The notes under the pieces were generated by a model. That model had not been told where the DNA came from, searched no databases, and worked only from the letters and a program-made list of their open reading frames with translations. A DNA stretch of 64,000 nucleotides from Sipunculus nudus (lineage: Eukaryota > Annelida > Sipuncula > Golfingiida > Sipunculidae): NCBI GenBank assembly GCA_026874595.1, contig CM049315.1, positions 9,587,664-9,651,663 on the forward strand. Reading direction: 5' to 3'. Shown here piece by piece: positions 17,601 through 64,000 of the stretch. The number at the start of each line of letters is the position of its first letter. The stretch's first letter is position 1. A program made the position numbers and the translations under genes.

Positions 17601-17629
17601 GGGAGCGTAGATGATGGTCATTTTTTGGC

Positions 17630-19470
17630 ATACATATTGATCAAGAGGTGTTCCATCAGTCCCTGCAGACTGGTGGCGCTACCTGTATTTTTTTTCAAAT
17701 TTTTACAATTTTTTCTCTCTATTTTGAGACCTTTAAGGATGTAGTTATCTGTCAACAGGGTACAAATCGTAACGACTGGACCTAGAATCTTCATTCTTGA
17801 CACACAGGGAGACCCATGAAAAGTCTCCATGGAAACCTGAAATAAGGTCTCGGTTACCCATAGCCTTTGAGCTATGGCACTCCGAAGTACAGCTCAGAAT
17901 AATGGAAAATTTGATACAAAACAGAAGTATCTGAACAACTAATGCAGAGATCACCATAACTGTTTGCATGGATAATGATCATGGAGTGTTTCATCAGTTT
18001 CTGCAGACTGGTGGCATCACCTGTATTTGTTCGGGTTTTTTTACGATTTTTTTATCTATTTTTGAGACCTTTAAACATATGAACATCTGTTAACAGGGCA
18101 CAAATCATAACAACTGGACCTAGAATCTTTATTCTTGACTCACAGGGAGACCAATGAATAGTCTCCATGGAAACCTGAAAATAGGTCTTTGTTACCCATA
18201 TCCTGTAAGATGTATGGCTCCAAAATACCCTCAGAATAATGAAAAAAATTGATACAAAAACTGCAGTATCTCAATATCTACAACACTGATGGTCATGATT
18301 TTTGGCATACATATTGATCATGAGGTGTTCCATCAGTTCTTTTAGACTGGTGGCGCTACCTGTATTTTTTCAAATTTTTACAATTGTTTTCCTCTATTTT
18401 TGAGACCTTTAAGGATGTACTTATCTGTCAACAGGGTACAAATCGTAACGACTAGACCTAGAATCTTCATTCTTGACACACAGGGAGACCCATGAAAAGT
18501 CTCCATGGAAAATTGAAATTAGGTCTCTGTTTCCCATATCCTTTGAGCTATGGCACTCCAAAGTACAGCTCAGAATAATGGAAAATTTGATACAAAAGCT
18601 GAAGTATCTGAACAACTAATGCAGAGATCACCATAACTGTTTGCATGGATAATGATCATGGAGTGTTTCATCAGTGTCTACAGGCTGGTGGCACCACCTG
18701 CATTTGTTCGGGATTTTTTTTACGATTTTTTCTCTATTTTAGACCTTTAAAGATATGAACATCTTTTAACAGGGCACAAATCATAACAACTGGACATAGA
18801 ATCTTCATTCTTGACACACAGGGAGACCCATGAAAAGTCTCCATGGAAAACTGAAATAAGGTCTCTGTTACCCATATCCTGTAAGCTGTATGGCTCCAAA
18901 ATACCCCCAGAATAATGAAAAAAATTGATGCAAAAACTGCAGTATCTCAATAACTACAACACTGATGGTCATGATTTTTGGCATACATATTGATCATGAG
19001 GTGTTCCATCAGTTTCTGCAGACTGGGTGCGCCACATTTATTTTTTCAAATTTTTACGATTTTTTTTCTATTTTTTAGACCTTTTTAAGGATGCTGTCAT
19101 CTGTTAACGTGGCACAAACTGTAAGAACTGGATCTAGAATCTTCATTCTTGTAATGCAAGGAGGCCCATGAAAAGTGTCTGTGGAAACCTGAAATTAGGT
19201 CTCAGTTACCCATATCCTTCAATCTTTAGGACTCCGAAGTATCCCTCTGAATAATGGAAAATTTGATACAAAAGCTGAAGTATCTGAACAAATAATGCAG
19301 AGATCACCATGATTTTTTGCATGGATATTGACCATTAAGTGTTTTCATTAGTTTCTGCAGACTGGTGGAGCCACCTGTATTTTTTTTAAAGTTTATGCAT
19401 TTTTTCTCTTTTTTTGAGATATATAAATACAGACACAATCTTGGCCTGTTGGTTAGTCTGTTTGATGCTT
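17630..19470. repeat. 338-bp tandem array with alternating A/B unit types, six units
   Basis: The phrase 'gatcatgaggtgttccatcag' begins at 17,639, 17,977, 18,316, 18,654, 18,992 and, diverged, 19,330, so the spacing is 338 or 339 bp throughout. Units alternate. Units 1, 3 and 5 carry 'ttttggcatacatattgatca'. Units 2 and 4, and 6 in diverged form, carry 'ccataactgtttgcatggat'. The real period is therefore a dimer of about 677 bp, repeated three times. Each unit also contains 'agaatcttcattcttgacacacagggagaccc' and 'gtctccatggaaa'. Open frames of about 65 codons in the units are repeat artefacts. Confidence 0.9.
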
Positions 19471-22680: not shown

Positions 22681-22686
22681 TTTATT
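22681..22686 (-). terminator. Candidate poly(A) signal of the galaxin-like gene
   Basis: The minus strand reads AATAAA here, about 290 nt downstream of the galaxin stop codon at 22,974. It faces the plus-strand poly(A) signals at 22,462-22,484, so the two genes would be tail to tail with roughly 200 bp between signals. Confidence 0.45.
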
Positions 22687-22973: not shown

Positions 22974-23416
22974 TCACTTTTTGTATACTTTTCCATTTAT
23001 ACAGAAACCATTGCTTGTGTCGTACACATGATCCGCACAACAAGCGCTGGACCAGGCGTACAGCCTTGACCTGACCTGTCCTTTGCAGCACATCTCTGTG
23101 GCAGCCTGGTACGTTTTATTTCCACAGCAGACGGGAGCCCAGCCGAGCAGAGCGACACCTGACGGGCGGGGGTGTACACTTCCGGCGCAGCACACTTCCT
23201 TCGTCCAATCATAGCTGTTCTCGCCACAGCAGCCTAGTTTGCTGGTAGATACTCGGGGCAGCAGACGACCGCTGCAGCACAAATGATATTTCACATTGTA
23301 AGCCTCTGTACCGCAGCAGTTAGAGTTACCGTGTCGTGGATGGACTGAGCCAGCACAACATAGAGACTTGAGAGGATTATAAGGTTTATTCCCACAGTTC
23401 GCCTCCAAGCTTATAC
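22974..23416 (-). CDS. Galaxin-like secreted protein, exon 2 (main coding exon)
   Basis: The exon begins after acceptor 'tttgtttcag' at 23,417 and encodes the mature part of a 169-residue protein ending FCINGKVYKK. It holds 18 cysteines, mostly as CC pairs in the galaxin pattern: CCG....Y......CC.G. In the joined protein, cysteines fall at 30, 42/43, 56/57, 69/70, 85/86, 98/99, 119/120, 132/133, 148/149 and 161, giving about five repeats. 'CCAGSVHPR' appears in repeats 1 and 3. Galaxins were first described from coral skeleton. Relatives occur in molluscan shell matrix and in squid, where one has antimicrobial activity. The role here (matrix or host defence) is inferred only from family. The exon joins exon 1 at 39,441-39,507 in phase 1, giving ...FFTG-ISLEANCGNK. 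A TTG at 23,408 is not the start. Confidence 0.88.
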
Positions 23417-25689
23417 CTGAAACAAATAAAAAACTTCAGATTTTCCGAACCATAAAAATAAACATTGGAAACAACTTTTAATTTGTATATAGCAAACAGG
23501 TCTATCTTTCATTTTCAGAATGATATGAGTTCTTGATACAAAAATTACAAACTATTGGATAAACACAGGAAACAACTTTTACCTTGTACATTTATAACAT
23601 CAACCGTCCCATTGCTGTATAATAGTATGAATTTCATGAATATTTAGTTCAACAATCCTCACGACAAAGATGATGTACCATAGCGCTTTGAAGAACGAAC
23701 TATATACTGTAATTCGTTAAAGGGCTTAACTCTAACTTAATATGAAGGACATTTTTGATAATTGAGAAGCTTTTCAACATAACCACTTTACTGACCAGAG
23801 ACCACCTAAGGACCTCATCACTGACACCTAAGACCCTCGTGTCTCGTGTTAATGTATCCAGACATGATGCATTTACTTATTTTTATTTTTTAAAAATCAA
23901 TATTCTCAACAAACAGTCCCTGTATTTCCTGTTAAAAACTTGATAAAGATAAAATAATAAATAAGATATTACCCGTAATGTAAATTAATAAAGAATATCA
24001 AAATGTTTCAGAAAATTAAAATTAATCTGTTAAAAGTAAAGCGTTCATCAGTGATAAAGTCGGTCAACCCATCGCCAAGCATTTAATCACTGAACGCGTT
24101 TCAGTTTATCCACATACATTTACACAATGTCATTAAATGGGTTTCCTTTTGAAGATTTCAGTAAAGTAGATTGGTAGGCCTATTGTGCACTTTTAAAGGT
24201 CTGCACCAGATACAAAATGTTATATTGTGAAAGAAAATATAGAACCATATCGACACTATTTGTAATTATTTGGTTGCGGGCAGACAGACCCCATCGTCAC
24301 GTCTTCAACCTTTCTATATAATCCATTTCTCAGAGGGAGACCATTGAAATCTTTAAATCTTTCTACAAATTGTACGCCTAGTCCAAAAAGGAAGCTTCAA
24401 TGACAGGATGACGCATTGGCCTAATTTAGCAGAAGGAAACTGAAAGCAAAATTTGGCAAACCAATTAAGCTAATTCACCATAATAGAAAACATTGTATTC
24501 ACTCACGAAAACAGCACCGGAATATGATGTTAAGGCACTTTGATATTATGTTTAAGTAATTCTCGTTTTCAGAAGCTGTTAGGCTGCTGACAAGGGATAA
24601 GGGGGCGTATCCAACGCTCTTTCCGACATATACACACTTAATAGTGAGCGCCGAAAAAACTGCTCCATATTACACCGTCTATAAAAATTTGCACATTTAT
24701 TTGTTTGCGATGTTCTTAATGTGATGATCATGCATATTACTTATTGATGTGATAACTGAATAAAATCTGTCTAAGATTTATACCATTCAAAAAATGCTCT
24801 CTCCGCCCCTAACTGAAGTCTTATAAACATTAAAAAATAAATTAACCGTCGCACGAAGTTGAGCCTTCTGGTGACGTCATGTTATAAAAGAAGAAGCAGT
24901 GCAAGATTTATTTTTCAGTTCTTGTTATCACACTTTATTCTTCGTGGCCGTTTATGATACAATTCCATTGACACTCTTTTCATGTCAGTTTTTACTTCTC
25001 TGCTTTCAGTTAAGAAGGATTTTAAAGGCAAAAATGAATCGCAATTCCAGTTCTATGAATCACATAAAATACAGGTCTTTATGTCTGGCTGTATGTCGGT
25101 GAATTCGGTATCCCTAGGTGATTTATATGGAAGGTTAAGTTGGTTACATAAAAAAATATTTGTAAAGATTTAGTGAAATAAAGCAGTCCATGAGGAGTTT
25201 AATTTTTATTAACGGTCGTAGGAACTTCCACAGCACGGCCGACTGAATTTATGCAAAATTGGTAGTGTATCTTTTATCCTGCACGACTGTGAAGTATGAA
25301 TGGGACAAACACGTGACATTATAGTATACCCTGCTAGTATGCCTTTAATGAAAGCTTTCACATAAGTGACTTTTTTAAACTACCGAAGTCATATTCTACT
25401 AATACGTACACATGCGTAAACAAGCTTTGTCTTTACCAGGTGTTTTTTAATTAGATGTGAACAAAAGCTGGTCTCCAGAGGACGCACAAGGGTTTTCAGT
25501 CAGAATCAATTAAATAGCGTCTCTCATATGACGAAATCAGTAACAAACTAGAATACGGGTAGTCGACAAGTGACTACGTGTATCTGCCGAAATCAGAGTG
25601 GGATGGGTGAAGTGAGGCATGGTTTTGAGTGGCGAGGGGAATTAGAGTGAGGTGTGTTGCATATTAGCATGGATGTCTGCAGCGGAAAT

Positions 25690-26600
25690 ATGTATGTAGG
25701 TTGTGCCACCTATTGCAAAATCCAGAAAGTTGCCCAATCTGTTTACATATGCAAAATTTTAGGCAGATAAATCAGACCACTACTTGTAGTGGATAAGTCA
25801 AACCACTGCCGAGATATGAGTGATTTTATCCAAAGGCATATGAACAGATGGACACTGTGCAAAAATAGTTGCAGGTGGCGCCACCAGTTTTGCATGTGAT
25901 TAAGAGCTATGTGAGAATTATACACATGCAAAATTTTGGCCCAATCGGTCAAATGGTTCCCGAGATATGAGCTTGGATATCTGCAGCGTACACGTGAATG
26001 AAGGTGGTGCCACCTGTCATAAAAGCAAGAAAGCTGTCCAGGATGTATAAACCTACAGAATTTCAGGTGGATAAGTCAAACCACTGCCGAGATATGAGTT
26101 ATTTTATCCCAAGGCATATGAACAGATGGACACTGTGCAAAAATGGTTGCAGGTGGCGCCACCAGTTTTGTTATGATAAAGAGCTATGTGAGATCTATAC
26201 ACATGCAAAATTTAAGTGTAAACCTGCAAAATTTCAGGTGGATAAGTCAAACCACTGCCGAGATTTGAGTGATTTTATCCAAAGGCATATGTACAGACGG
26301 ACACTGTGCAAAAAATGTTACAGGTGGCGCCACCAGTTTTGCGTATGATAAAGAGCTATGTAAGAGATCTATACACATGCAAAATTTTGGCCCAATCGAT
26401 CAAATGGTTCCCGAGATATGAGCTTGGATGTCTGCAGCGTAAACGTGAATGTAGGTGGCGCCACCTATCATAAAATCAAGAAAGCTGTCCAAGATGTATA
26501 CACATGCAATATGAGTGATTTTATCCCAAGGCAGATGAACAGATTGACGCTGTGCTAAAATGGTGGCGCCATCTGCAATGTATGTTATAAAGCTTTCCAA
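25690..26600. repeat. Tandem repeat array with perfect GGTGGCGCCACC cores
   Basis: GGTGGCGCCACC occurs at about 25,874, 26,152, 26,323 and 26,454. The phrase 'tttcaggtggataagtcaaaccactgccgagat' starts at 26,061 and 26,232 (171-bp period) and has a variant near 25,780. Spacing between cores is 278, 171 and 131 bp, so units have been deleted or merged. A 116-codon frame at 25,998-26,348 exists because 171 is divisible by three; it is not a gene. The array is bordered near 25,550-25,580 by a motif shared, inverted, with 4284-4320. Confidence 0.8.
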
Positions 26601-27000
26601 GGGCTACATGTGTGGGAAAATGTTTAGCCTGATCGGTCAAACGGTTCCCGAGATATGTGGGTTTATGTGTGGAAACAGATGCACAAATGGACTCTGGGCA
26701 GAGAGGAAAGGTCAGAGGTCAACCAAAAATGAGGGCGCAGCAGTACACATGTGACCCGATCATAATCCCGTATTTAAAAAAAATCCGCCCGGAAACCTAA
26801 GCGGCGGCGACGGCGGCGGCGTCCGACTGAAAACATAGTATCCGCAAAACTCTGTTTTTGGGGATACAAATATTTATCCACATTTTTATGGTATGGCGTT
26901 TATTAGAGCTTAATAAAGCAGGCTTGGGTACAACATATGTAAAGCCACATTTGCGTTTGCATTTAAATCCGGGGGTGAATCAATTTGGTTTCAAAAGACA

Positions 27001-27062
27001 AATGCCTGATCATGATAAATTATGCAAATTATGCCTGATCATGATAAATTATGCAAATTTAT
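27001..27062 (+). repeat. Recent direct duplication, about 31 bp x 2
   Basis: 'atgcctgatcatgataaattatgcaaatt' is present twice back to back (from about 27,001 and 27,032) with no mismatch, indicating a recent slippage event. Confidence 0.85.
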
Positions 27063-29693
27063 GATAAAAACATATGACATCAAGCGGCAAAATAGAGGTA
27101 TTTGCATTTGATAATATTTTATTATGATTGAATTTATATTTAAGCTGATTTATCTAAAACATCTGCATTTGTACTTAAATGCTTCGAGTCGTATTTGAAC
27201 CCCAACCCTGGAATAAAGTTAATTGTTGAGATGATTCAAAGACACGTAAAGCTTGCTATAAATTTGAGTTACTGAAGAAAAAATTTCCAGTAGGTCGCAA
27301 AATGCCCTGACAGGACAAAAAAATAGAGTGATGGTCGTGATGGCTGGGAGGTCGTAAGATGTGATTTTAATTGTTCATATATTCTCATCTTTTTTCAAAA
27401 AAGTTATAGCACGGTACATTTATTGTCTCTCCAAATTCTCACGTCCCGGGAGTTGAAAGCATTTTGTTTCATTTATTTTAGAAAGTGCTTGGGAAATCTT
27501 ATATGCTGCACGGACACAATTTTGTTTTCTTTGACGTTAGTCATATTACCATTTTTTCTATTAGTAAATGAGAAAAATATCAGCTTCCCGTACAAAATTC
27601 ATACGATGTATTTTTATAACTATTTCAAAAAGTTTATTTATTAGAAAAACAATGCTTAAGCTTACCAATGTTAAAACTCAGTTGAAGTTTCTGCACGACT
27701 TTTTGAGTCTTAAAACCATTAGAAAATTGTTGGGCGCCAGGTTTCTACGTAATTCGTCTCTGACATACGTCCATGTTATCTCGCCGGGAGGTACAGGTTG
27801 CATTTTACCGTATTAAAACCTGTTCTGGCTGGCCCGGTATCACACTTGGGACAGTGTGGGCTCATTAGAACAATATAACGTCGGCACCTGACAGAAAAAC
27901 GTCAGACTGAGATACTCCACAAGGAGCCGACAAAATACAAAAACATGGTTTACAGTCATGTCAAGGATATCGGACAATCTGACCAGACGGCACTCATACA
28001 GTCAAGACATGGCGCTAGAGTAGCAAAAAATACTGTGCAATCGTCCAAGGCCACAACACTTCACAGGATAAATAGGCATTTATACTGGTGTTTATTCAGT
28101 TTTTAATTCAGCCATTGTTTATCCAGTCACTATAATTGTTTTTCGTAAAGCGAATCTATGGACCATCACCAAAATGTATTTAATTATTCATCATGGTATC
28201 TGCTCTGTAGCAAGGCATGTCTCCGCAAGAACTCTGGAACAGTGGCTGTTCAATTTAACAGGAAGACGTATAATGTGTGCATGTGAGGTAATGCCTTTCT
28301 GAACCAATAATAACATTTAAACAATATTTAATAAAATTTGCTTATAAAAATACATTGCACAAAAAAAATTTGAGGAAAGTCAAAATGACAAATGATTAAT
28401 ATACAAACGAAAGTGACATGTACCTTATGTGCTGATAGATGTAGTGGTCAATGGTTGCTTTCTACACAAACTTTTCCAATTTTATCTTTTTGCATTGAAC
28501 AATAGCGTATTTCTTTCTACTCCGTTCCTTTTTCGGGGGAGGGCGCGGGGGACATGTCCCTTTTACTTTTCTAGGAAGCGGTTGACAAAGTATTTTTTAT
28601 GAATGTTTGAAAATGGAGATGACTTAAAAGGAAAAATAAGGTGTCGAAAATTGAGCAGCAATACTTTCATATATCCCAAATATATACTCTGTAATACGTA
28701 CAGAGAAATTGGAATGTGTTTTGATGTCCTGAGGAGAATTTTAGCTGGGGTAATAGTTCAAGTGTCAGGAGGTTGGGGGGGGGGGGGGAGGGGGAGCGGT
28801 ACACACTGCTGATGCTTTCCCAAAATATGGTCTCAGCGAACAAGCCCAGCCTGCCATCGGAAAACAAGTGTGCCTGGAGTTCTAGTGGACCTGTATACAT
28901 AGCTCTCGTATACAAAGGTATATGGGGCGCTGCTTTCGGAACTAAACGTATGCTATTTTATATCACGGATTTCCAGGTCAAAAAAGAGGGTGGGTGGGGG
29001 GGGGGGGGTGGGGGTGGTCAGCAACCTACTAAATCCGCCTTCCCCTGTGTGGCTCATGCTTACATAAATCATAGATATTTTGAAAAATTTTAAGCTGAAC
29101 GACCAGTTCAGTTTGTCACAAATTTCCCCAACATTTGTTAAATGAATGGAATAACTAAATCTTGGACATTTATTAACTGATGCACAAATCTGTTTGAAAA
29201 GTGAAAGGCTCGATATCAAATTGAATATTTAATCATTAAAATCCATTGCAAGACTCTATAATTTCTGTATATAGGTTCCACTATTGGATGTATAGACAGT
29301 CAGACGGACGGACGGACACTCGAAGGAAACGGGTCTCTTCCCACAATATTAACGGGTGGATTGAAAGCCAGAAGGCCGGGCCCTTGAAGGATACGGACCC
29401 ATCCCCACAGCTGAGATGACTTTCTGTCAACTAAACTGAAATAATTCACCTAAAAAAAAGAGTTCTTGTAGTTAGCACTGGTATTAGGAAATTTCGTCGC
29501 TGATCAAAACCCTATCTAACACCTTATGATCCTATATTTCGTTATTCAAGTATCAATCGATTTATCTTCTTTCTTGGGAGTTTGGTATGCATTCAGGCAT
29601 GTCCCTTACGTATAACTGTTGTCTTCTGTAGGAAAGGTGTTTCCCGAGAACAAAAGACCCAATTATCAATAAATAAAGCGATGTATTTATATA

Positions 29694-29820
29694 GAGTAAA
29701 GCGTCGTTTGCAGTAGCGTCAATTTTTCTTCCAGGGTGGGGGGGGGGGGGGGGTGACTTTGTTTATTTATATATATATACACACACACACACCTTTTTCA
29801 GCGTCTTTGAGTGACATATT

Positions 29821-29878
<58 letters not shown>

Positions 29879-30795
29879 CTATTTATATATATATATGATA
29901 TAAACATACCAATGTTAATCATATTTAAAAAAATTATAATATTGTAATAGAAAATAAGTTTTTGTAATTCAAAGCAAGGTTTAGATATAACATTTTTTAG
30001 TAAACGAATCCAAAGTATTTAATTCTATTCAATAAAATATTTCATTTGCAATATCATAGTATTATTCTCTGAAAAGTGTGGGGGGGGGGGATGATTACAT
30101 TGGTCATCCCCCTTGCCAAAAAAAGTGGGGGGTATATATATACCCCCACCCCCTATATTGACGCCCCTGGTCGTTTATCCGAAAAAAAGGCTCGTTAATT
30201 GGACACGATTTTTGCTCTGATTGACCGTGATTACAAACCTGCCGCCGAGTACTGGACGTTCTTAGAGACTGACAGACCCGAATTGATGAAGCTCACCCAT
30301 AAAAAAACGTTGGCAATAATATTTGTGTAACATAGGGATTTTAGTCTGGATCAAATGGCGTCAGGATCAGGATCATTCCTTATACTACTAATTCATGTCA
30401 TGCGTCGCCGTCATGATAGAAAGTGGACAGGAACAACTAGGAGTTCAATTACAAAGGAACGTAACAAAATAAAAAAATAATCATTTAATAGTCGTTTTTA
30501 TTTAAAAATTATTATTTCTGTTATATCAACTGTGAGGGTCTTGTCTAACATTTTTCTTGTTCACCCCACTTGGGATGCGTGATTAAAAGGCGAGAAGAAG
30601 ACAACACGCACCGGCGGAGCGATGTTTTTCACACTTAATACCTGAGGTACACTAATTATCCGGCTTTATGTATAACTACTGATCTCTGTAATAATATGAT
30701 CTTTTATACTAACATGTCAGATATTTTTATGAATATCGGAAAAACGATCATAATTTATCGTTCTCAACGGTTTTCGGATAAACGACGCTCTACTT
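29694..30795. mobile_element. pogo/Tigger-like element interrupted by a hAT-like element
   Basis: The left end reads GAGTAAAGCGTCGTTT[insert]ATCCGAAAA and the right end, reverse complemented, reads AAGTAGAGCGTCGTTTATCCGAAAA. Both are flanked by TA (29,692-29,693 and 30,796-30,797). CAGTAGAGCG-like tips with TA duplication fit pogo/Tigger-type elements. Removing the nested insert (29,711-30,169 plus one target copy) leaves about 635 bp with no transposase frame. Confidence 0.7.
29711..30169. mobile_element. hAT-like MITE nested in the pogo-like element
   Basis: It begins CAGTAGCGTCAATTTTT and ends in the complement of CAGGGGCGTCAATATAG. Eight-bp target copies GTCGTTTG (29,703-29,710) and GTCGTTTA (30,170-30,177) flank it with one mismatch. 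An 8-bp duplication and CAGGGGCG-type ends are typical of hAT elements. The interior carries a G run, a (CA)n/(TA)n stretch at about 29,770-29,895 and 'gtggggggtatatatatacccccac' near 30,125-30,150. It has no coding capacity. Confidence 0.8.
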
Positions 30796-32437
30796 TATTT
30801 AAATATACACACACCTCGGATTCTGGTCTCAATAATTTCATTATTTAAACTTAATATTCAGCTTATTATTCAACTCATTATTAAATGACAGGGTAATAGA
30901 TGTTACAGAGAACAAAAACATATGCAGCCCCATTCAGTATGCACGTTCATATACCATGTTTTTAATCCAATTTAGAAGTTCATTCTTGATATATAAAAAA
31001 CGCATCCCAGGCGTTAGAACTGCAACGTGTTTATTTGAAGTGGAAATAAAGCTTGTGAACTGAGTTAATTGTAAATTAACGGCCCTCAAGCACACTTTAA
31101 GTTTTGACGCTAATATTATTCTTGGATGGTACTCATGAGAGACTTAAAGCCATCCTCTTCTCTCCTGCAATGTAGCGTGCCTATGTCTGATTACAGGGAG
31201 GGCGCGACCTTCACGGAGCACGGGAAAAACTTACCCTAGCTTCCCGAAGCTTCTTGAGTTTCTTATCACACATAACCAGACAGATCCCGGGAAGCTATGG
31301 GTGATTTCCTGACGGAGCATAAAGGAATGAGATGTCTTTTGATTATTCCCATTTGAGAGATAAAAACTACAGCCGTTTACAACTGCATGTGAGCATCAAG
31401 CAGAAACTAAGTGTCGGGTCAGATTAGGCGGTCGATGTGTAAGGCTTTCTGAAATTCTGCACATAGAGAAATAGTCCATACACCTGCAGTGCGATAAACT
31501 GAAAGAATATTATCTCTAATGAGGTATCAATTGTGAACTACTGGTCATGACGCTCAGCTAACAAGCACTGTAAAATACTGCAATACGGTCGTCTGATATC
31601 AACGCAAAGAACACCAAGTGATACTCTTCGTTGTGTCTCTTGTTTGACCTGACGATATGTAACATTTGTATAAATATATGTTACAAAATATATAATTTAT
31701 CTAATTCTGATTCTGATCTATTCGTATTAAGGAAAAATTGCAAACTATTTTATTTATTGTTAAAGCTACAATATAATTTGAATGATAAGTGATCGTTTAA
31801 AAATTAATGTTTAATTAATTAAAGGACTCTGTAAGTTGCCTCACCAGCCTTGAGCGCTAGTCCAAAACCTATGATCAATAACCATAGTGAACTTTATGCA
31901 ACCATTGTTTGAACATCTGAAATCCTACATAATGATTAATTAAAACTGGAAAAAATAATGGTTGAATTTAATTGACTACAGTAAGTAAAAGGTCGAATTA
32001 TTTTGTTGGAGTGGTTTGACATTATAACACACTGAAGCCAAATATTTCAAATCAAAGAAAATTCTTTTCTTCAGCAGGATATAAGGTGACAGAGACCTAA
32101 TTTCTGGTTACCGTCGATTTATCCGTGCAGTGAATCTAATGTCTGTAGCTCTTCAAATGACCTGCTAATAGTATGCTTAAAGAACTGTGTATGAGATAAA
32201 TTATTCACAATCCTTAATGTTCAGATGACACTCAGTCAGCTCCACCAGAAAATAAATAGAAATAAAGTCTACTGATTCATTGTCACATCCCCGAAGGAAT
32301 GGACGTCCAGGTTCTTTTAAACGGTAAACCAAACCGGTTACAACTCACACATACACTCCAAAAGATGAAATGGCATGAGTAAACAAAATATTAAAATATA
32401 TTAAAACACACGTACATTTCTCTGGAGAGGCGTTCTA

Positions 32438-32440
<3 letters not shown>

Positions 32441-32508
<68 letters not shown>
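32441..32508. repeat. (TA)n microsatellite
   Basis: This is an uninterrupted (TA)n run of about 34 units in the galaxin intron. Similar runs lie at about 34,079-34,146 (same intron) and 29,824-29,869. Confidence 0.95.
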
Positions 32509-32511
<3 letters not shown>

Positions 32512-32864
32512 TGATCACAAGAGTCCATATAATCAAACAAAATCACTAATTCCTGTTTACTCCTGTATGTTCAAAGCACAAGAAAATTCACTTGTATACA
32601 CGGCTCCCAATCACATGACCGACGTGCACACGTGACATTGGAGTGTCAGCTCCTAGCTCAGTCCGCCCACACTGTGTATGTACACATGTATTCTTCAGCG
32701 CTTTACACCACCAATCAGCATAGTTCCTCACTGATTTACGCGCTCGCCCCTCAAGGAAACGTCCAGAAAGCACTGGAAGATAGGCTCACAGTCTCCTCTG
32801 TAGGAATGCGGAAGAAATGTCTTTTGCAGCATATGTCTCCTGGATTCATCCAGCAAGAAATTAC

Positions 32865-33175
32865 CTGAATATGCCCCCGCACGACAATATTCAGTACCAC
32901 TCTCGTTTCGCGTGTATATCGCCCTGGCCATCTAATTGGACGCGCTCAAGGTAGACACACATCGCCGGATTACCAGTCCTTCGGCAATCACAATATCCAC
33001 TCAGAAGTCCGTTACAGGGGTATTTACGTGGCCGTCTTCAGACACTGACGTTTTACGCTCAGGAACATCGTCTCTCAGTTGACCTGACACTGGATCCGGC
33101 ACAGACAAACACGGACCGGCCTCTGGACCGCAGAAAACCGTAAGATTACACCCAACTGTCGAGCTGACCCAGGCA
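32865..33175 (-). other. Candidate first exon downstream of an intronic promoter
   Basis: About 30 bp downstream of the TATA-like box at 33,204-33,210 lies GC-richer sequence. It leads to an ATG at 32,931 and 22 codons (MARAIYTRNESGTEYCRAGAYS), then a donor-like CAG/GTAATT at 32,865/32,864. The frame leaves phase 1, the same phase as galaxin exon 1, so it could splice to galaxin exon 2, but the peptide has no signal sequence. At least one upstream ATG exists (uORF MFLSVKRQCLKTAT). It could equally be a non-coding transcript or chance. Confidence 0.25.
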
Positions 33176-33202
33176 ATTGTAAAGAGTTCCTCTTATCCCT
33201 GG

Positions 33203-33251
33203 CTTATATACTCTTGCTGACGTAACAAGTCCTGACCATCTCCTGGCCAAT
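33203..33251 (-). promoter_or_regulatory. Promoter-like cluster: TATA, CRE-like site, CCAAT box
   Basis: Read on the minus strand, in transcription order: ATTGG (inverted CCAAT box, 33,247-33,251), TTACGTCA (CRE-like, 33,218-33,225), then TATATAAG (33,203-33,210). Order and spacing resemble a TATA promoter firing leftwards. It lies inside the galaxin intron on the same strand, in an island less AT-rich than its flanks. Confidence 0.4.
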
Positions 33252-34077
33252 CATCTGACAGCATTATCCAGCTTGTCATAAACTGCATGAATACTTAAAT
33301 GGACACGCCTCCAGAGAGTAACCCATGAGAAAAAGCAGATAAGCAGGTTAGCTGCCTTTGATGTCTACAATAAACAATGTCGCTATAGGAACCTTCTTGA
33401 CATGAATCGGCTCCCAAGGAATTAAAACCGTACTGAAATTAACATCAAATGAGACACCTGGGTTCTCTCAACTAAGTTCTCGCGCTAACATCTATACAAG
33501 GTACTCCATATTAAAGTTAAATAAATTATAAAAACAATCATTATGTTATATTCCTTACTTGAAAATGCAGTAAAATAATTAAGTCTCAATCCTCAGGCGA
33601 CATTCATGTTAGTTAAACTAATTCAATGACGTGATTAGAAATCATTAATTAAATATCATCATTTCATTATCACTGTACCATTGACGGTACATCGTACCAC
33701 TGTACACAAGAAATAACGTAATTGATCTAATTATGTGATTCATTTGTCGCTTAAAAATTATTTTTTTTAGCCAGATTGATTTCGTGGTTTATATCTGCTC
33801 GGTAGTTGGTGGGCAAATGGCCAGTGTGCTCACTTGTCATCGGGTTATATACAATTCTTGAATTATTGATTAATACGTTAAAACTACTCTTACATTATTT
33901 AAAAGAGTTTTAAGTTTTTTATTTCTCGATGCCCCATGTACATTACAGCTTATCAGCTTACATCTGGCCGATAGGTTTAAGATAAACATACACACACACA
34001 CACATATATATATAACTGTGTGTAAGGAACTGTAATACATGTATATAGTTGTAAATTTCAAGTCTTGAACTATGTAA

Positions 34078-34078
<1 letters not shown>

Positions 34079-34146
<68 letters not shown>
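34079..34146. repeat. (TA)n microsatellite
   Basis: This is a pure (TA)n run of about 34 units. A short (CA)n/(TA)n run lies nearby at 33,990-34,012. Confidence 0.95.
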
Positions 34147-34153
<7 letters not shown>

Positions 34154-35712
34154 ATACATCATATAATAATGAAATCTTGATGGCGCCTCTAAGATTCGAT
34201 CTGACGTCTTAATGTCAGGTTATGACTGGATTATTCCGAGCCCCATTCATATAAAAAGCTAAATCTAGAAGGCTTACAAAATACATTTATCTTGTCAACT
34301 GATTACCCTCATCCTCAGTCAATAGGCAGTGCTACCAAAAGACCATGGGCCTATCCTTTAGCAAGATATGGTTTATGTATCTTGGTATCTTGACCATATA
34401 ATACACACAGTAAAATCTGCCAGAGCAGGGCGGTCAAGGGACTGCAACATGTTTGTGTCTGTATTTGACAGTTAGCCTTTCACATGAATTGTCAGTATGT
34501 GCTCTGCCCTAAGTCACACTTCGGTAATCACTATTATTGGTTCATCTGGTCAGCTGCTGAGAAAGGCTAGTCCTCATAACAATGAATGGAGCGATCTCTC
34601 TGTATCTGTATACTTGTTGCTGATTTAAGGAAAAGCTAATGGCTGTCACTTTCAATTCATGTTTGCTGTACGGTTCGCTTTGTGTTAACAATTGGATTTG
34701 CATGAGGGCATTGGTGCATTAACTGACTGCCATGCGTAACCTTTACAGTTCATTAGATTAACTCATGAATTAATCAATAAGAGGTCAGGTTGACACAGCT
34801 GAAACAAACTGTAACCGAAACACACGCAATGCAGGCAGACACACTAACACATATCTAAAGCATTCAAGGGACCAACCTTCTGAAATGCTCACCAGTAATT
34901 ATCCCTCTAGGTGACCAAATATATCATGGGTTTCTATAACAGAGAACCCCATGAGAGATTTACAAGGAATGCAGTTTCCTATCACTTAGCATCATTCAGG
35001 TGGTGTTAAAAGTATTGATTGGTCTTTCTGTGTGTAACAAATTACAAAGACCTGAAGCAGTGAAGACGATGCCACATTTCAACCGAGGTCACCCTGTAAA
35101 AATATGTTTAATATATAACCAAGGCCCATATACGACTTCGAATGAATAGCCGTCAGTCAAGTTCTAAGCCAGTGTCTAATATTACCAAATTAAAATCACC
35201 ACTGATAGATCTACGATTAGATGAATAAATTAGAAGAGACACAGTTGTGTTCAGATAAAATTCCGGAATAAAATACCGGTTAGGATTTCCAACGCGGAGA
35301 GTAAATACTCTTATTTCTAAAACGAAATATCACATTATATAGTATCGATCATATTTCAATATCCTTCATGTTCAACATAACAAAAAAAAACTTTCTGACA
35401 GGGAAACAGTGAGGATGCAGAGAGAGACAGAGAGCGAGTAAATCCCCCATGAGTGATACCTCGATCAGATCCAAGATTTAAAAAAATGGTCGAAAAAAAA
35501 ATATTCAATAAACAAAGGTTAGAATTGTGCTTATAATCAATTTACTTCAACCTATACTAAGTAGACCTTCCCTGGCCTAAGGAACCAGCTCGATACATTA
35601 TTTCCACGATAATCCGACCTATCATCGGTCTATAGTCCTAGAGAATATACTAAAACATGTGCAAGGGTTATTGGATGGAACATGGCCTGTAAGTTAGACA
35701 GCAGATCCTAAG

Positions 35713-35970
35713 CACAGGCGCTTGTTTCCCTATTTGTGCAGATATTGGCTTAAATAGAGTTCAATCATCTTTAAAACAATCCCCTGTCCTTTAATGAGTT
35801 CTAAACAAGGACATAACGCCTGCCGGTACTTCTTCCATTCTCTATATCAACAAGTACCGGCAAGCGTTATATCCTGGTTGAGAGCTCATTAAACGGTAAG
35901 GGACTGTTGTTTAAGGTGATTGAACTCTATTTAAGCCAATATCTGCACAAATAGGGTTCAAGCGCCTGTG
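35713..35970. repeat. Long hairpin (inverted repeat), about 118-bp arms
   Basis: The left arm begins CACAGGCGCTTG and continues through 'ctatttgtgcagatattggc' and 'ttaaatagagttcaatca'. The right arm is its reverse complement with roughly 85% identity by eye, ending CAAGCGCCTGTG at 35,970. The loop is about 22 bp. TCCTAA lies at 35,706-35,711 and again at 35,971-35,976, a possible 6-bp target duplication (one extra G on the left). It could be a foldback MITE, or a transcribed long-hairpin small-RNA precursor; both are inference. Confidence 0.85.
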
Positions 35971-37338
35971 TCCTAATGTCCTTGGTTTAACCCGACCATA
36001 CCCCAAATCATGCATGCAGAATTGTCTTATATCATACTTTAAGGTCTGCATAAAAATAAGGGTAAACATACTTTTAAGTTATATCAGCTAAATCAAAAAC
36101 ACATTGATTAGCACGACACTAATGTCTCCGATTCTCTTCCTGCAGCAAAGTATTCGTCAATTCGTGGAAGATTTCGCTTAAATAAAATATACCGTGCGAC
36201 ATGCTACCGTCATCATGAAAGGAGTTCCCCGGGCGAATAACAAAGCCCAAGATTAGGCATGAGTAAAAGAGGTACAGGGTCTGCATTTATGGCGCAAAAG
36301 GCTTACAAAACTACGAGCTGAACGGAACAAGAGAAAATCGGAGATAGGGAGGATAGGTTCAAAGCTGCCTATCCGTAGAAAGTACTCCATCGACTTCAGG
36401 AACATTTTGTCTTTGGTATATAAAGATATGGAATGTCCCAAGCTGATTGACGCTGCCGCCTAAATATGTAAAGAGACAACAGCCATAAAAACAAACGTCT
36501 GATGTCCAGAAAGCTTACAGTAAATGCTTTTAATGGAATTTATTATACATGCAATACGGAAGTGTCTACGGATGCCTGGGGAACGAAAGAGAGCTTGAAA
36601 GAGCACATTTCTAGGGCCCAGATGTAACTTCATCAATTTATTGCTCGCGCATGCGTACAAAACATTTCCGGTTGGGGAGTGCAGCAAAAGATGCCTCAAT
36701 TTTCTTGTGTTCCTTTAGTAGCTATGAACGCTGATAGGTTCGTGTAATGCCATCAGGGGGCCCAGACAAGCGACCTCAGACATGTCAGCCATCCCTAGCC
36801 ATATCATCATGAAGCCTTCATGTTTATTTGGGGGACGTGTCTTTTGGGTACCCAGTAATGGTCATTCATCTTGTACGAGTTTTTAAGTACGCTGAGGTAG
36901 TTGATTAAAATTCAATCAGCACTTCAAACGAGGTAAAGTTAGATATCTTGGTTTTTCTAAGATTCCAGGAAACAATCTTTTTTACAAAATATCGAGTGTC
37001 AGCCATTTCACACAAAATGACATTTAAGACACAATACGATCTATCAGTTGTTACATTATTACCGTATAATCATATTATATGAGGGATTTGTTCTGAAAAT
37101 ACCGATATTTCATTTGATTTTAAAATTTTGTATAGATGATGACATTTATTTTAGTGAACCCATCATCCGCGATCGGTTTTTTAACACGTGGTTTTAAGAG
37201 TATAATTTGTTTCGTTTGTAGGATGCTATAACTAGCCAACCATGAAACTTAACGCCTAAGTTTCTTTTTTAAATTTTATGGTACTGGTTATCATGCTATT
37301 GCCCTCAACAATACTTCCTTGTACGTCCGTATACACAA

Positions 37339-37735
37339 GGCTCGGTGTGTCGCATTATCCTGGTGACAACAAGGCTCGGTGTGTCGCATTATTCTGGTGA
37401 CAACAAGGCTCGGTGTGTCGCATTATCCTGGTGACAACAAGGCTCGGTGTGTCGCATTATCCTGGTGACAACAAGGCTCGGTGTGTCGCATTATCCTGGT
37501 GACAACAAGGCTCGGTGTGTCGCATTATTCTGGTGACAACAAGGCTCGGTGTGCCGCATTATCCTGGTGACAACAAGGCCCGGTGTGCCGCATTATCCTG
37601 GTGACAACAAGGCTCGGTGTGTCGCATTATCCTGGTGACAACAAGGCTCGGTGTGTTGCATTATCCTGGTGACAACAAGGCTCGGTGTGTCGCATTATCT
37701 TGGTGATAACAAGGCTCGGTGTGCGGCATCTGTAT
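37339..37735. repeat. 34-bp minisatellite, about 11.5 units
   Basis: Units begin GGCTCGGTGTGTCGCATTAT and continue CCTGGTGACAACAA. Starts are at 37,339, 37,373, 37,407 and every 34 bp to 37,713, the last partial. Units differ at only a few positions. It lies in the galaxin intron. Confidence 0.95.
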
Positions 37736-39440
37736 GCAGGTCACGCGTGTGTAATCATTCCCACACATTGGGTCAAACCACCGGGGACCCCCCCCCCACC
37801 GGAAGGGGACCCTATGAATGAAACACGACGTTTGGGAATAGCCCTCCCATTTAGCCCCGGATCGCGCTCCCTGAGTAGAAGCCGAAGGGGGAAAAAAAAG
37901 AAAACAATCAAAATTTCTCCTGGCTTTTGGCCATAGTCCCTGGACCACAAACCACAGTAAATAGCCGGAAGAAAATTTCCTCATGTGCCTATAGCTACTC
38001 CCAGGACCCTGATATCCAGATATTGGCAAATAAAGATTTAATAATATCTAATTGCTCCAATCGGACCGTCTTCAGTACTCCCGAAGAAAGAGGATTACAT
38101 CACAAATCTTTTTGTGGACAATATGTACGGCTGTTACAGCACGAGCTATTGATCAATAATGTCAATGCAGCCGTTCTTTGCGAAGACGTCTGGCGGCAGA
38201 TTGGTCAGTCCTTTGTAAGACTGTGGGGAACATTATGACCCATTTATCAAGCCCTGTGCATCATTAACTGTTTGTGATCGTTATTGCTCCAAGGGACTGT
38301 TGTAAAACACGTGTAATGAAGGTAGCTGCTTTTATTGGACGGCCGGCCGGAATAGCACTTACACTGCCCGGTCGACCGGCAACTTGAGAAGAATCCCCCG
38401 TCACGTGCGGGCAAAAAAAAAACTTGATTTTCAATTAATCCGAGTGTCGTTTTAAACCGGTATGAGACTACATGAAGTATATATGGTTTTACACCTAACA
38501 CAATGTTCTATCTGATGTATATTTTGATTGTTTATTTAATTTTTACAATTTTGAAAATGATGATATCCCCATATATATATATATATACATATATACCAAC
38601 ACTTTGTTGTGTGTTCATCCACTGTACTTATTTCTTACATACATTTAAGATTTAATTATTAAAGTTTGAATAAAATGTTACAATTCAGCTTTAAATGAAA
38701 AAGAGGCAAGATGGCTAGACGTGCAAAAATCCTTGATTTGTTCTAATCTAGTTGATTACCCCCCTAAACGGTCTCTCATTCCTGGAATAACTCAACTTTT
38801 TTAATTCAGACTATCTACTTTTGATGATATAAATTGATGATATAATATATAAACCCTTACTCCAGGTATTTCTCTTGCAATAAGGTGACTTAAGTCATGA
38901 GTATGTGTGTCACCATGGTAACCATTATGGCATCTCAACTGTAACATACGAATAAAGGCCGCTACCTGGCCAAAGTAAATTAAATCAAATGCCATAATGC
39001 GCAATAATGACAAATTATTATCATTGGCTTTTCATTAACTTTGTTTCACAAACCGTGGCAATTACAGAACATACGCTAAATCTTCAAAATTTCCCAAATA
39101 TACATTTTTGTACCATATGATCACAAACCAAACTTTATCAATGCTTTTCTTTACTGTCAGACCTAAGTTTTATGGAGAAGATGTTACTCTTTGAAAACAG
39201 TAGCTTTTCTCAGGGGCAGGATATGAAATGAATAAATATTTATTGTTACATTGTGTCATTAATCGTAAGAATTAACTCAATTATGAAACCATAAAAAAAC
39301 GGAGTTCTTCTCGTTTACCTGGTTATCAGAAATTAAGTTAAGTATCGATTATTTTAACATTTAACACGATGTTTAATGGGTTAAATGATTTAAAAGATTA
39401 AGACATTCTAGGGAGCGTTCGAGGGAAACGACTCACTCAC

Positions 39441-39507
39441 CAGTAAAGAAGCCATGCGTTTCCCAAGCAAGGACGGCAAACAGAAGACACGCCACCAGAT
39501 AAGACAT
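39441..39507 (-). CDS. Galaxin-like secreted protein, exon 1 (signal peptide)
   Basis: The ATG at 39,507 opens 22 codons, MSYLVACLLFAVLAWETHGF plus FT, then one base of a split glycine codon before donor G/GTGAGTGAG at 39,441/39,440. The peptide is a standard secretion signal with a hydrophobic core LVACLLFAVLA and likely cleavage near THG/FF. Phase 1 matches exon 2 exactly: 67 + 443 nt = 510 nt, 169 residues plus stop. A TATAAA lies about 87 bp upstream. The model needs a 16-kb intron. The pairing is inferred from strand, phase and the lack of any other signal exon for the galaxin exon. Confidence 0.75.
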
Positions 39508-39593: not shown

Positions 39594-39599
39594 TTTATA
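39594..39599 (-). promoter_or_regulatory. TATA box of the galaxin-like gene
   Basis: The minus strand reads ATATAAACGG here, with TATAAA 87-92 bp upstream of the exon 1 ATG. Transcription starting about 30 bp downstream would give a short 5' UTR of roughly 55 nt. A weaker TTTTATATC lies at about 39,555-39,562. Confidence 0.5.
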
Positions 39600-50400: not shown

Positions 50401-50800
50401 CAGGATTCATGATTAAACTAGGTAACACTTGCCCAGGATTCATGATTAAACTAGGTAACACTTGCCCAGGATTCATGATTAAACTAGGTAACACTTGCCA
50501 AGGATTCATGATTAAACTAGGTAACACTTGCCCAGGATTCATGATTAAACTAGGTAACACTTGCCCAGGATTCATGATTAAACTAGGTAACACTTGCCCA
50601 GGATTCATGATTAAACTAGGTAACACTTGCCCAGGATTCATGATTAAACTAGGTAACACTTGCCCAGGATTCATGATTAAACTAGGTAACACTTGCCCAG
50701 GATTCATGATTAAACTAGGTAACACTTGCCCAGGATTCATGATTAAACTAGGTAACACTTGATCAGGATTCATGATTAAACTAGGTAACACTTGCCCAGA
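50401..50800. repeat. 33-bp minisatellite, about 12 units
   Basis: Units read CAGGATTCATGATTAAACTA then GGTAACACTTGCC and recur every 33 bp with very few differences (for example 'gccaagg' near 50,498 and 'tgatcagg' near 50,760). Because 33 is divisible by three, both strands carry long open frames of an 11-residue repeat; these are not proteins I would call. The near-identity implies recent expansion. Confidence 0.95.
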
Positions 50801-57823: not shown

Positions 57824-58467
57824 CTTTCTTTTCCCCCCACTGCTCTGTATGGAGCTGTTCATTGCGTTTTTAGGAGTTCGGTTACGGTGCTTTGGTGACC
57901 TGGTCGTCTCTAGAGAATCGTCCAATGATAAATTAGCCATGGCTAATGGTGTTCCTAAACATGACAGGGCATCAAGAGGTGTGGTTTTGCGGGACGATCT
58001 GAATGGTGTTTTCATTGGCCTAAGCACCATGTGGCTATTCGTAGAATCGTTCAGAGCATGCTCCTGGGAAGGTTTAGCCCGCGTACTGGTGGTCCGAGTT
58101 TCTGTCTGATTGGGGGCCAGAAGGTGAGGCTGTTGTGACCATTTATTAGTGTGGCCTTTTACGTGGTTTTTCATCATTGTATCGGAGACAGAGCCTTTAG
58201 CGTACACGGTCGCTACTTTGACGTTGCCAGCTTTCTCTTCAGGCATGTGGTTGTATGATCTCAGCACACGTGTGGGCTCAGGAGGGTTGGCCAGTGTAGT
58301 GTCCGATATAGTTTTAGTTGGACACGTTTGTGTCTCGACTGGATAGGTGGTTCTAAGGTGAGGCAGACATAGTGTGTTTCGTCTCTGCAGCTCATGCAGT
58401 CGATCCCACTCGAACGTTTCCATCTCATCCTTCTCATCCTCTGACATGAACAGGCTGCCCATTCCTC
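57824..58467 (-). CDS. NUMA1: NuMA-like protein, exon with LGN/Pins-binding motif
   Basis: Acceptor 'tatattgcttgcag' precedes the exon, and donor AAG/GTAAGC ends it at 57,824. It begins GMGSLFMSEDEKDEMETFEW and continues DRLHELQRRNTLCLPHLRTTYPVETQ (about residues 445-490 of the partial protein). This aligns with the human NuMA peptide that binds the TPR domain of LGN: human WNRIAELQQRNRVCPPHLKTCYP against WDRLHELQRRNTLCLPHLRTTYP. That interaction anchors NuMA and dynein at the cell cortex to orient spindles. The rest is Ser/Thr/Lys-rich and disordered, with several SP/TP sites such as RSPK and RTPK that could be mitotic kinase targets (inference). The exon continues the split AGA codon from the previous exon. 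Confidence 0.88.
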
Positions 58468-58888
58468 CTGCAAGCAATATATAATTCAGAAACATGGCTA
58501 CTAGTCTGTTTTAAGAATAAGAGCATACTGATTTATTTAACTTGATGCACTACATCATGAGGTTACAATACAATTAAAGGTTTGATGAGAGCATCCAATT
58601 AAATTAAGGGCACAAAATCTCGCAAGTTGTCCAGATAGTCACAATTTATGGGGGAAATGTTTGGTATTCAAATGATCAGACCATAATAATCAATTTGATT
58701 TTTAAGGATATACAAGTTCATTCAAGTCATGTGCCTGACACTAATGCGAAGCATATGCACCCCTGTTGAATTCAGGAGAGATGAAAATAAAGCAATTTAA
58801 TATTAAGCAATCAAAGGTACTGGTATATAACAGGTCTAGGTGAAATTACTCTTAAAATATAACTGAGGAGCAAGCTTGTCAAACTTAC

Positions 58889-59270
58889 TGAGTTGTTTCT
58901 GGTGCTGACTGGCAGTCGCACTCCTAAGTTTTCTCTTCATTCCATGTTCAGGTGGAGTTTTCGGGGCCACAAGCTTATCAAAGGGTTCAAGGTCAGTGTT
59001 CATATCATCTTCTTCTGAACTAAAATTGGGCTGTGGTGGTATACGATGTTCCGGTATACGATGCTCCGCTACACGCTTTTCTGGTACACGCTTTTCTGGT
59101 GCATGGTTTTCTGGTCTGTGCTGTTCTGGTCTGTGTTTTTCTGGTCTGTGTTGTTCTGGTTTGTGCTGATCTAGTTTGTGCTGTACTGGTCTGTGATGAT
59201 TTGGTTTGTGCTGATCTGGCCTATGTGGCTTGGCTTTTTCTTCCTCATTCTCCTCTGGGAACTGACTTTC
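58889..59270 (-). CDS. NUMA1: NuMA-like protein, exon with pentapeptide (EQHRP) repeats
   Basis: Acceptor 'gttgctgttgcag' lies at 59,271 and donor CTCA/GTAAGT at 58,889/58,888 (ends phase 1). It starts ESQFPEENEEEKAKP. About 12 tandem pentads of the form [DE]-x-H-[KR]-P follow, for example DQHKP, EQHRP, EKHRP, EQHRP, then drifting to EKRVP and EHRIP. After them come an acidic patch (SSEEDDMNTDLEP) and a basic stretch (MKRKLRSATASQHQKQL). The pentad block corresponds to a 15-bp tandem repeat in DNA at about 59,035-59,215 and I recall no counterpart in vertebrate NuMA. It lies between the coiled coil and the LGN-binding motif, so it probably acts as a flexible linker (inference). Confidence 0.8.
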
Positions 59271-63160: not shown

Positions 63161-64000
63161 CTGTGCTGAGAGTTTCTGTATTTTAGTCTTGTCGTTAGTT
63201 CTCTGCGTCTGATACTGTTGTATCTTTCTTTTCAGCTTTGTCAGTTCTATTGTCTTTTCCTCCAAATCTTTCTGCAGGGATACGGTGTTGTTACGGTTGT
63301 TTTCTTTTTCGTTTTGAAGGGCTTCATTTGTATTCTTGAGTGTTTGAGTTTTGGTTGCAACATCTGTTTTTAATTCTTCTAGTTTTAGCACCAGACATGC
63401 ATGGGCGTCTTCATGACTTTTTATTATTGATCGTGACTCTGAGAGTTTTAATTCAAGATCAGAAATATGTCCATTCTTAGAATCAACAGCTTTTGCAAAA
63501 TCCTGCAATCTGGTTTCAAGCTCACTTGCTGCCTGTGCTTTCTGCTGTAACTTGGTTTTGTACTTTTCCAGTTGAACGGCAAGATCTTTTCTCACCTCTT
63601 CACTTGCATTAGCTTCAACAAGCTTAGACTGAAGATCTGATGTTAATTGTTGTTTCCATTCCACCTCTTTCTCAGCTGTCTGAAGTCTCTGTTTCTCAGC
63701 TGTTAACTGCATCTCTAGCTCTTCTAATTTAGATGTCAAACTTGCACTGTTTTGCTCCTGGGTCTGTACAACAGACTGGTATTCTTCAACTTTTGATTGA
63801 AGATCTGAAACTTGTGAAGACTTGGACTCTACAACTTCCTTTAATTCACATAGTTCTGTCTCCAGATCACTAGTAAATTGTGTTTTCTGCTTCAAATTTA
63901 TTCTGTATTTCTCAAGCTCCTGATTCAAAGCCAGTGCAGTATTTTCATTTATTTTTCCAGTTTCTGATATTTGGTCTAGCTGGGTCTGGAGGACAGAAAT
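63161..64000 (-). CDS. NUMA1: NuMA-like protein, large coiled-coil exon (5' end beyond window)
   Basis: The frame is open from the right edge (ISVLQTQLDQISETGKINEN) to donor CAG/GTAAGG at 63,161/63,160, 280 codons, phase 0. The whole stretch is heptad-patterned coiled coil, rich in Glu, Lys, Gln and Leu. A segment starting LEKYRINLKQKTQFTSDLET repeats 115 residues later as LEKYKTKLQQKAQAASELET, and the match continues over about 70 residues. Alone it would only be called a long coiled-coil protein. The NuMA identity comes from the downstream LGN-binding and MAF..TP-K exons. NuMA crosslinks spindle microtubules at poles and recruits dynein; its long rod separates an N-terminal dynein-binding part (outside this window) from the C-terminal tail. 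Full-length family members are usually about 2000 residues or more, so most of the gene is to the right. Confidence 0.82.

Follow-up and report, generated by a model that had tools for sequence, protein, structure and literature searches.

A predicted two-exon galaxin-like gene with a 16-kb phase-1 intron in Sipunculus nudus

The locus and its predicted protein

The window, which here means the whole 64,000-nt stretch of DNA that was analysed, lies on contig C10 and carries on its minus strand a short signal-peptide exon and a cysteine-rich galaxin exon (Table 1), at the positions and on the shared strand given in the original prediction. Exon 1 consists of 22 codons from the ATG plus one base and is followed directly by GTGAGT. 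Exon 2 is preceded by the acceptor TTTGTTTCAG/GT at 23,416, and its frame is open from this position to a TGA whose end is 22,974; both splice sites are phase 1, as had been claimed. Joined in frame, the exons give 169 codons and a stop, encoding the protein MSYLVACLLFAVLAWETHGFFT-G-ISLEANCGNKPYN..., which contains 19 cysteines, 18 of them past residue 19 or 22, in agreement with the predicted 169-residue product with 18 mature cysteines. With a predicted pI of 8.7, the mature product is basic. Upstream of exon 1, a second TATAAA is found at -162 relative to the start codon in addition to the candidate core promoter in Table 1. TATA-like matches within 140 nt were present at 6 of 13 galaxin loci, the window gene counted in, and are thus not a family-wide mark.

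Table 1. Predicted features of the window gene, and signal-exon candidates with introns at 12 related loci in the same genome
Feature	Position	Strand	Description
Exon 1	39441..39507	minus	67 nt; ATG, signal peptide MSYLVACLLFAVLAWETHGFFT and 1 base of the next codon
Exon 1 donor GTGAGT	39,440-39,435	minus	phase 1; junction CTG/GTGAGT
Predicted intron	23417..39440	minus	16,024 bp, phase 1, GT-AG
Exon 2	22974..23416	minus	443 nt; remaining mature protein, ~five galaxin repeats, stop
TATAAA, candidate core promoter	39594..39599	minus	92 nt before ATG; consensus match only
AATAAA, candidate polyadenylation signal	22681..22686	minus	~290 nt past stop
Paralog C13	C13		signal exon 76 nt; intron 11,853 bp
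Paralog C5p	C5		signal exon 76 nt; intron 10,940 bp
Paralog C5q (L026, L040)	C5:5,584,757-5,586,841		signal exon 76 nt; intron 6,272 bp; stop at junction
Paralog C5m	C5		signal exon 76 nt; intron 2,327 bp; weak donor
Paralog L007	C17:50.496 Mb		signal exon 76 nt; intron 2,812 bp; signal weaker
Paralog L015			signal exon 61 nt; intron 5,667 bp
Paralog L016			signal exon 67 nt; intron 1,348 bp
Paralog L017			signal exon 67 nt; intron 770 bp
Paralog L031			signal exon 52 nt, short; intron 799 bp
C10 paralog	C10		signal exon 64 or 70 nt by start chosen; intron ~5.4 kb; acceptor uncertain
C4, first locus	C4		signal exon 64 nt; intron 3,950 bp
C4, second locus	C4		signal exon 64 nt; intron 1,438 bp

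When compared with Pfam, the joined protein matched the Galaxin_repeat profile (PF24748) over residues 29-164 (E = 3.8e-27; 95.2 bits versus a cut-off of 28; profile positions 3-131 of 131), which bears out its description as galaxin-like. Di-cysteines are located at residues 42, 56, 69, 85, 98, 119, 132 and 148 and single cysteines at 30 and 161, so that the mature protein has the pattern 1 + 8x2 + 1 = 18 cysteines in ~five repeats, and the tandem ~30-aa repeats contain the two di-cysteine motifs that mark the family. The window gene is an ordinary, well-formed new member of the known galaxin family. A match to IGFL stayed below threshold (E = 0.0025, 18.2 bits versus a cut-off of 25); it was read as shared cysteine spacing and dropped. 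The protein had no match above cut-off in NCBIfam and no sequence relative in the PDB, and in a genome-wide DNA search (1.43 Gb) the sole match to exon 2 was exon 2 itself. In a single-sequence AlphaFold2 model, repeated pairs of short strands were predicted (mean pLDDT 65; other four models 31-46); this hairpin model, though weak, would agree in kind with the beta-hairpins described for galaxins and calcarins (PMC12419799).

Elsewhere in the window, Pfam searches took in 20 of the 41 open reading frames (ORFs) of the ORF list. These included every ORF of 90 aa or more that overlaps the intron, 10 in all, none of which matched above cut-off; the ORF at 25,998-26,348 gave sub-threshold matches to DUF6965 (E = 0.0048) and ADGRF3_N (E = 0.037), both rejected. 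Two minus-strand exons of another gene, with boundaries placed by eye, lie at 57,824-59,270 and translate to FEWDRLHELQRRNTLCLPHLRTTYPVET, which we take to resemble the C-terminal region of NuMA; Pfam reported nothing above cut-off for this gene. Tandem arrays were present at 17,622-19,419 (~338-nt unit, 5.3 copies, 77% matches), 37,335-37,723 (34-nt unit, 11 copies, 96% matches) and 50,401-50,799 (33-nt unit, 12 copies, 98% matches), the last of which is open on both strands because its unit is a multiple of three. A search of the window against Rfam at gathering thresholds was negative.

Signal exons at the locus and at related loci

Candidate signal exons were sought as phase-1 ATG-to-donor stretches scoring 5 or more at the donor, on the minus strand of the 40.6 kb upstream of exon 2 inside the window, using generic splice weights and hydropathy values not tuned to this species. 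Five of the 30 candidates contained a hydrophobic stretch, and the exon starting at 39,507 was top by combined score, with a donor score of 10.3 (the other four: 6.9, 6.5, 5.3 and 5.0). Of 150 first-order Markov simulations of the 40.6-kb stretch, one gave a phase-1 candidate whose hydropathy reached 3.25 and whose donor score reached 10. In a control with looser limits (hydropathy of 2.95 or more, donor of 8 or more, phase free), the minus strand of the whole window yielded the 39,507 exon only; on the plus strand, a poly-isoleucine microsatellite contained two ATGs that share one donor (score 8.1). The putative signal peptide of the predicted join has a fitting hydrophobic stretch (hydropathy 3.25), and the residues at -3 and -1, T and G, suit cleavage by eye. 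Among the 41 acceptor-like sites passing the filter used, the one at 23,416 has the longest phase-1 frame; its pyrimidine content, 68%, just clears that filter.

The genome comprises 1.43 Gb in 153 contigs; C1, C2 and C17 are 111, 98 and 61 Mb and C18-C21 are 52-92 kb, and contig sizes up to C21 suggest 17 chromosomes. A protein search of this genome returned 71 matches. Grouped by position, they make up 13 loci besides the window gene, together with two isolated fragments at 44.607 and 54.693 Mb of C17. The galaxin family in this genome therefore has at least 14 loci. All seven paralog exons tested, out of 13 loci, matched Pfam Galaxin_repeat above cut-off. Galaxin exons of great length, whose frames stay open for 721 to 1,310 codons, were observed at C5:6.83, C5:6.87, C13:56.38 and C10:75.01 Mb. 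A tree was built from eight galaxin exons (the truncated C5q and L031 were dropped, and C10, C2 and C4 left out); it placed the window gene beside the large C5/C13 genes (99/99 support) and was set aside on the program's long-branch warning.

At 12 of the 13 other loci, a short signal-exon candidate with a phase-1 donor lies upstream of the galaxin exon across an intron of ~0.77-11.9 kb, some of these candidates being weak (Table 1); the layout is an architecture found in this genome and corresponds to no published criterion. The C2 locus had two weak signal-exon candidates in 9.8 kb, neither of which was accepted. Paralog signal exons were selected manually: for C13, C5q and C5m, likeness to the C5p exon guided the choice and not top score alone, the C13 exon being third in its candidate list and the C5m exon needing lowered thresholds. 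As a strand control, the 13 paralog upstream stretches (102 kb) were scanned for exons of at most 110 nt with donor at least 5 and hydropathy at least 2.2, giving nine candidates on the sense strand (seven among the accepted exons) versus one on the antisense strand; the C5m and C5q exons fall under these thresholds because their donors are weak. The 76-nt signal exon of C13 and the three on C5 resemble one another. Upstream, C13 has no DNA in common with two of its three C5 relatives except the stretch around the signal exon (the third gave no match), which argues against extra coding exons in between. If the acceptor closest to the repeats is used, the junction codon at both C4 loci is T/GT, which recreates the first conserved repeat cysteine; a more upstream acceptor is likewise in frame and leaves no junction cysteine. 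The galaxin exon of C5q has a further stop 90 codons in, and with the stop at its junction this paralog is probably a pseudogene. The 16,024-bp intron of the window gene is longer than those of all 12 paralogs.

Gene models compared

Because related genes in the same genome share this build, we favour, at a probability of roughly 0.87, a single gene for a small secreted galaxin-like protein whose two exons are predicted to be joined. The original prediction of a gene spanning a ~16-kb intron thus gains the support of 12 of 13 paralogs with the same layout, as a prediction. The two-exon model is probably right and also ordinary, since phase-1 introns after signal peptides are common: human genes are reported often to have an intron of this phase just past the signal peptide, and a first intron is often long (PMC7259759). 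Among the titles and abstract openings listed for galaxin papers, none gives an account of the two-exon architecture itself. Transcription would proceed on the minus strand from near 39.5 kb, and removal of the 16-kb phase-1 intron would join the 67-nt signal exon to the galaxin exon, a single one, at 23.4 kb. Cleavage of the signal peptide would probably follow Gly19 (ETHG/FF), and the mature protein of ~150 residues may fold into successive beta-hairpins held together by di-cysteines.

Splicing of the galaxin exon to some other signal exon, nearer or further upstream than 39.5 kb, is unlikely. The candidate at ATG 34,040 is slightly more hydrophobic than the 39.5-kb exon (3.30 versus 3.11), and the scan ended at window base 64,000, but the 34,040 candidate adjoins a TA array (34,079-34,165) and has the weaker donor (6.9 versus 10.3), whereas the 39.5-kb exon is first in the overall ranking and has the same length (67 nt) and phase as the signal exons of L016 and L017. 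Sequence comparison leaves its descent less clear, which also favours a different exon: the window signal peptide showed no clear likeness to nine paralog signal peptides (the best, C4a, was equalled by 7 of 300 shuffles), so kinship of exon 1 to the paralog signal exons is only putative. The galaxin subfamilies of this genome have the repeat exon and the intron phase in common, but their signal exons, at 52 to 76 nt, vary in both length and sequence, which may reflect exon shuffling; exchange of signal exons by phase-1 shuffling, with the window gene having recruited its own signal exon 16 kb away, is nevertheless rather improbable. We consider it highly improbable that the 39.5-kb exon is part of some other gene for a secreted protein, with the galaxin exon being a fragment or pseudogene. 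Such decay has a parallel at C5:5.58 Mb, where stops interrupt both the junction and the galaxin exon, but exon 2 of the window is open to its stop with a complete cysteine pattern. Inside the intron, moreover, no acceptor among the 41 filtered sites opens more than 57 phase-1 codons, and the 10 intron-overlapping ORFs of 90 aa or more had no Pfam match above cut-off.

Under the preferred one-gene model, the full precursor is given for a gene at risk of truncation in automatic annotation. This risk had been raised originally, and it is plausible that the 67-nt exon would be missed; the accompanying idea of an internal start that loses the signal peptide needs a correction, since exon 2 has no methionine ahead of residue 131 and an annotator missing exon 1 would be left with a stub or partial model and not with a nearly whole mature protein. 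The paralogs also supply a rule for where their signal exons lie: 52-76 nt, with a phase-1 donor, up to ~16 kb upstream. Outside the galaxin family, the model changes little.

Possible role and comparison with known galaxin-like proteins

Galaxin-like proteins are reported from corals, sponges, molluscs and annelids (PMC7853314, PMC12419799), and the window protein may act extracellularly as a disulphide-rich structural or matrix protein. By analogy, a chiefly antimicrobial or mucosal function, and not one in shell or skeleton matrix, is a tentative alternative that concerns the role only and that we hold to be possible but the less probable. The squid protein EsGal1 is galaxin-like and has antimicrobial action, and an antimicrobial or mucosal role is reported for it (as recounted in PMC7853314); the basic mature protein predicted here would fit such a role. 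Against it, cysrichin, a protein of much the same size, functions in forming the shell (PMC10045328), and a galaxin is reported from a slipper-snail shell proteome (PMC9365450).

The nearest comparison within the genome is paralog L007, which has the same 1 + 8x2 + 1 cysteines (counted by eye) and a similar length but differs from the window gene in its sequence (37% identity), its 76-nt signal exon candidate and its 2.8-kb intron. Cysrichin of the mussel Hyriopsis cumingii is likewise small, secreted and galaxin-like, with 163 aa, a 26-aa predicted signal and five di-cysteine repeats; it differs in being 14.7% cysteine and serine-rich and is expressed in mantle and gill, the likeness being one of description and not of alignment (PMC10045328). 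The calcarins of Sycon ciliatum, as here, are secreted di-cysteine proteins with predicted beta-hairpins, but have 10-23 di-cysteines per protein (PMC12419799), compared with eight in the window protein. In Galaxin and Amgalaxin of stony corals, a signal peptide is followed, as in the window protein, by ~30-aa repeats with two di-cysteines; the coral proteins are described as having 338 aa, an acidic mature protein (pI ~4.5) and a dibasic processing site (PMC2726143), whereas the window protein is shorter and basic and has only a terminal KK.
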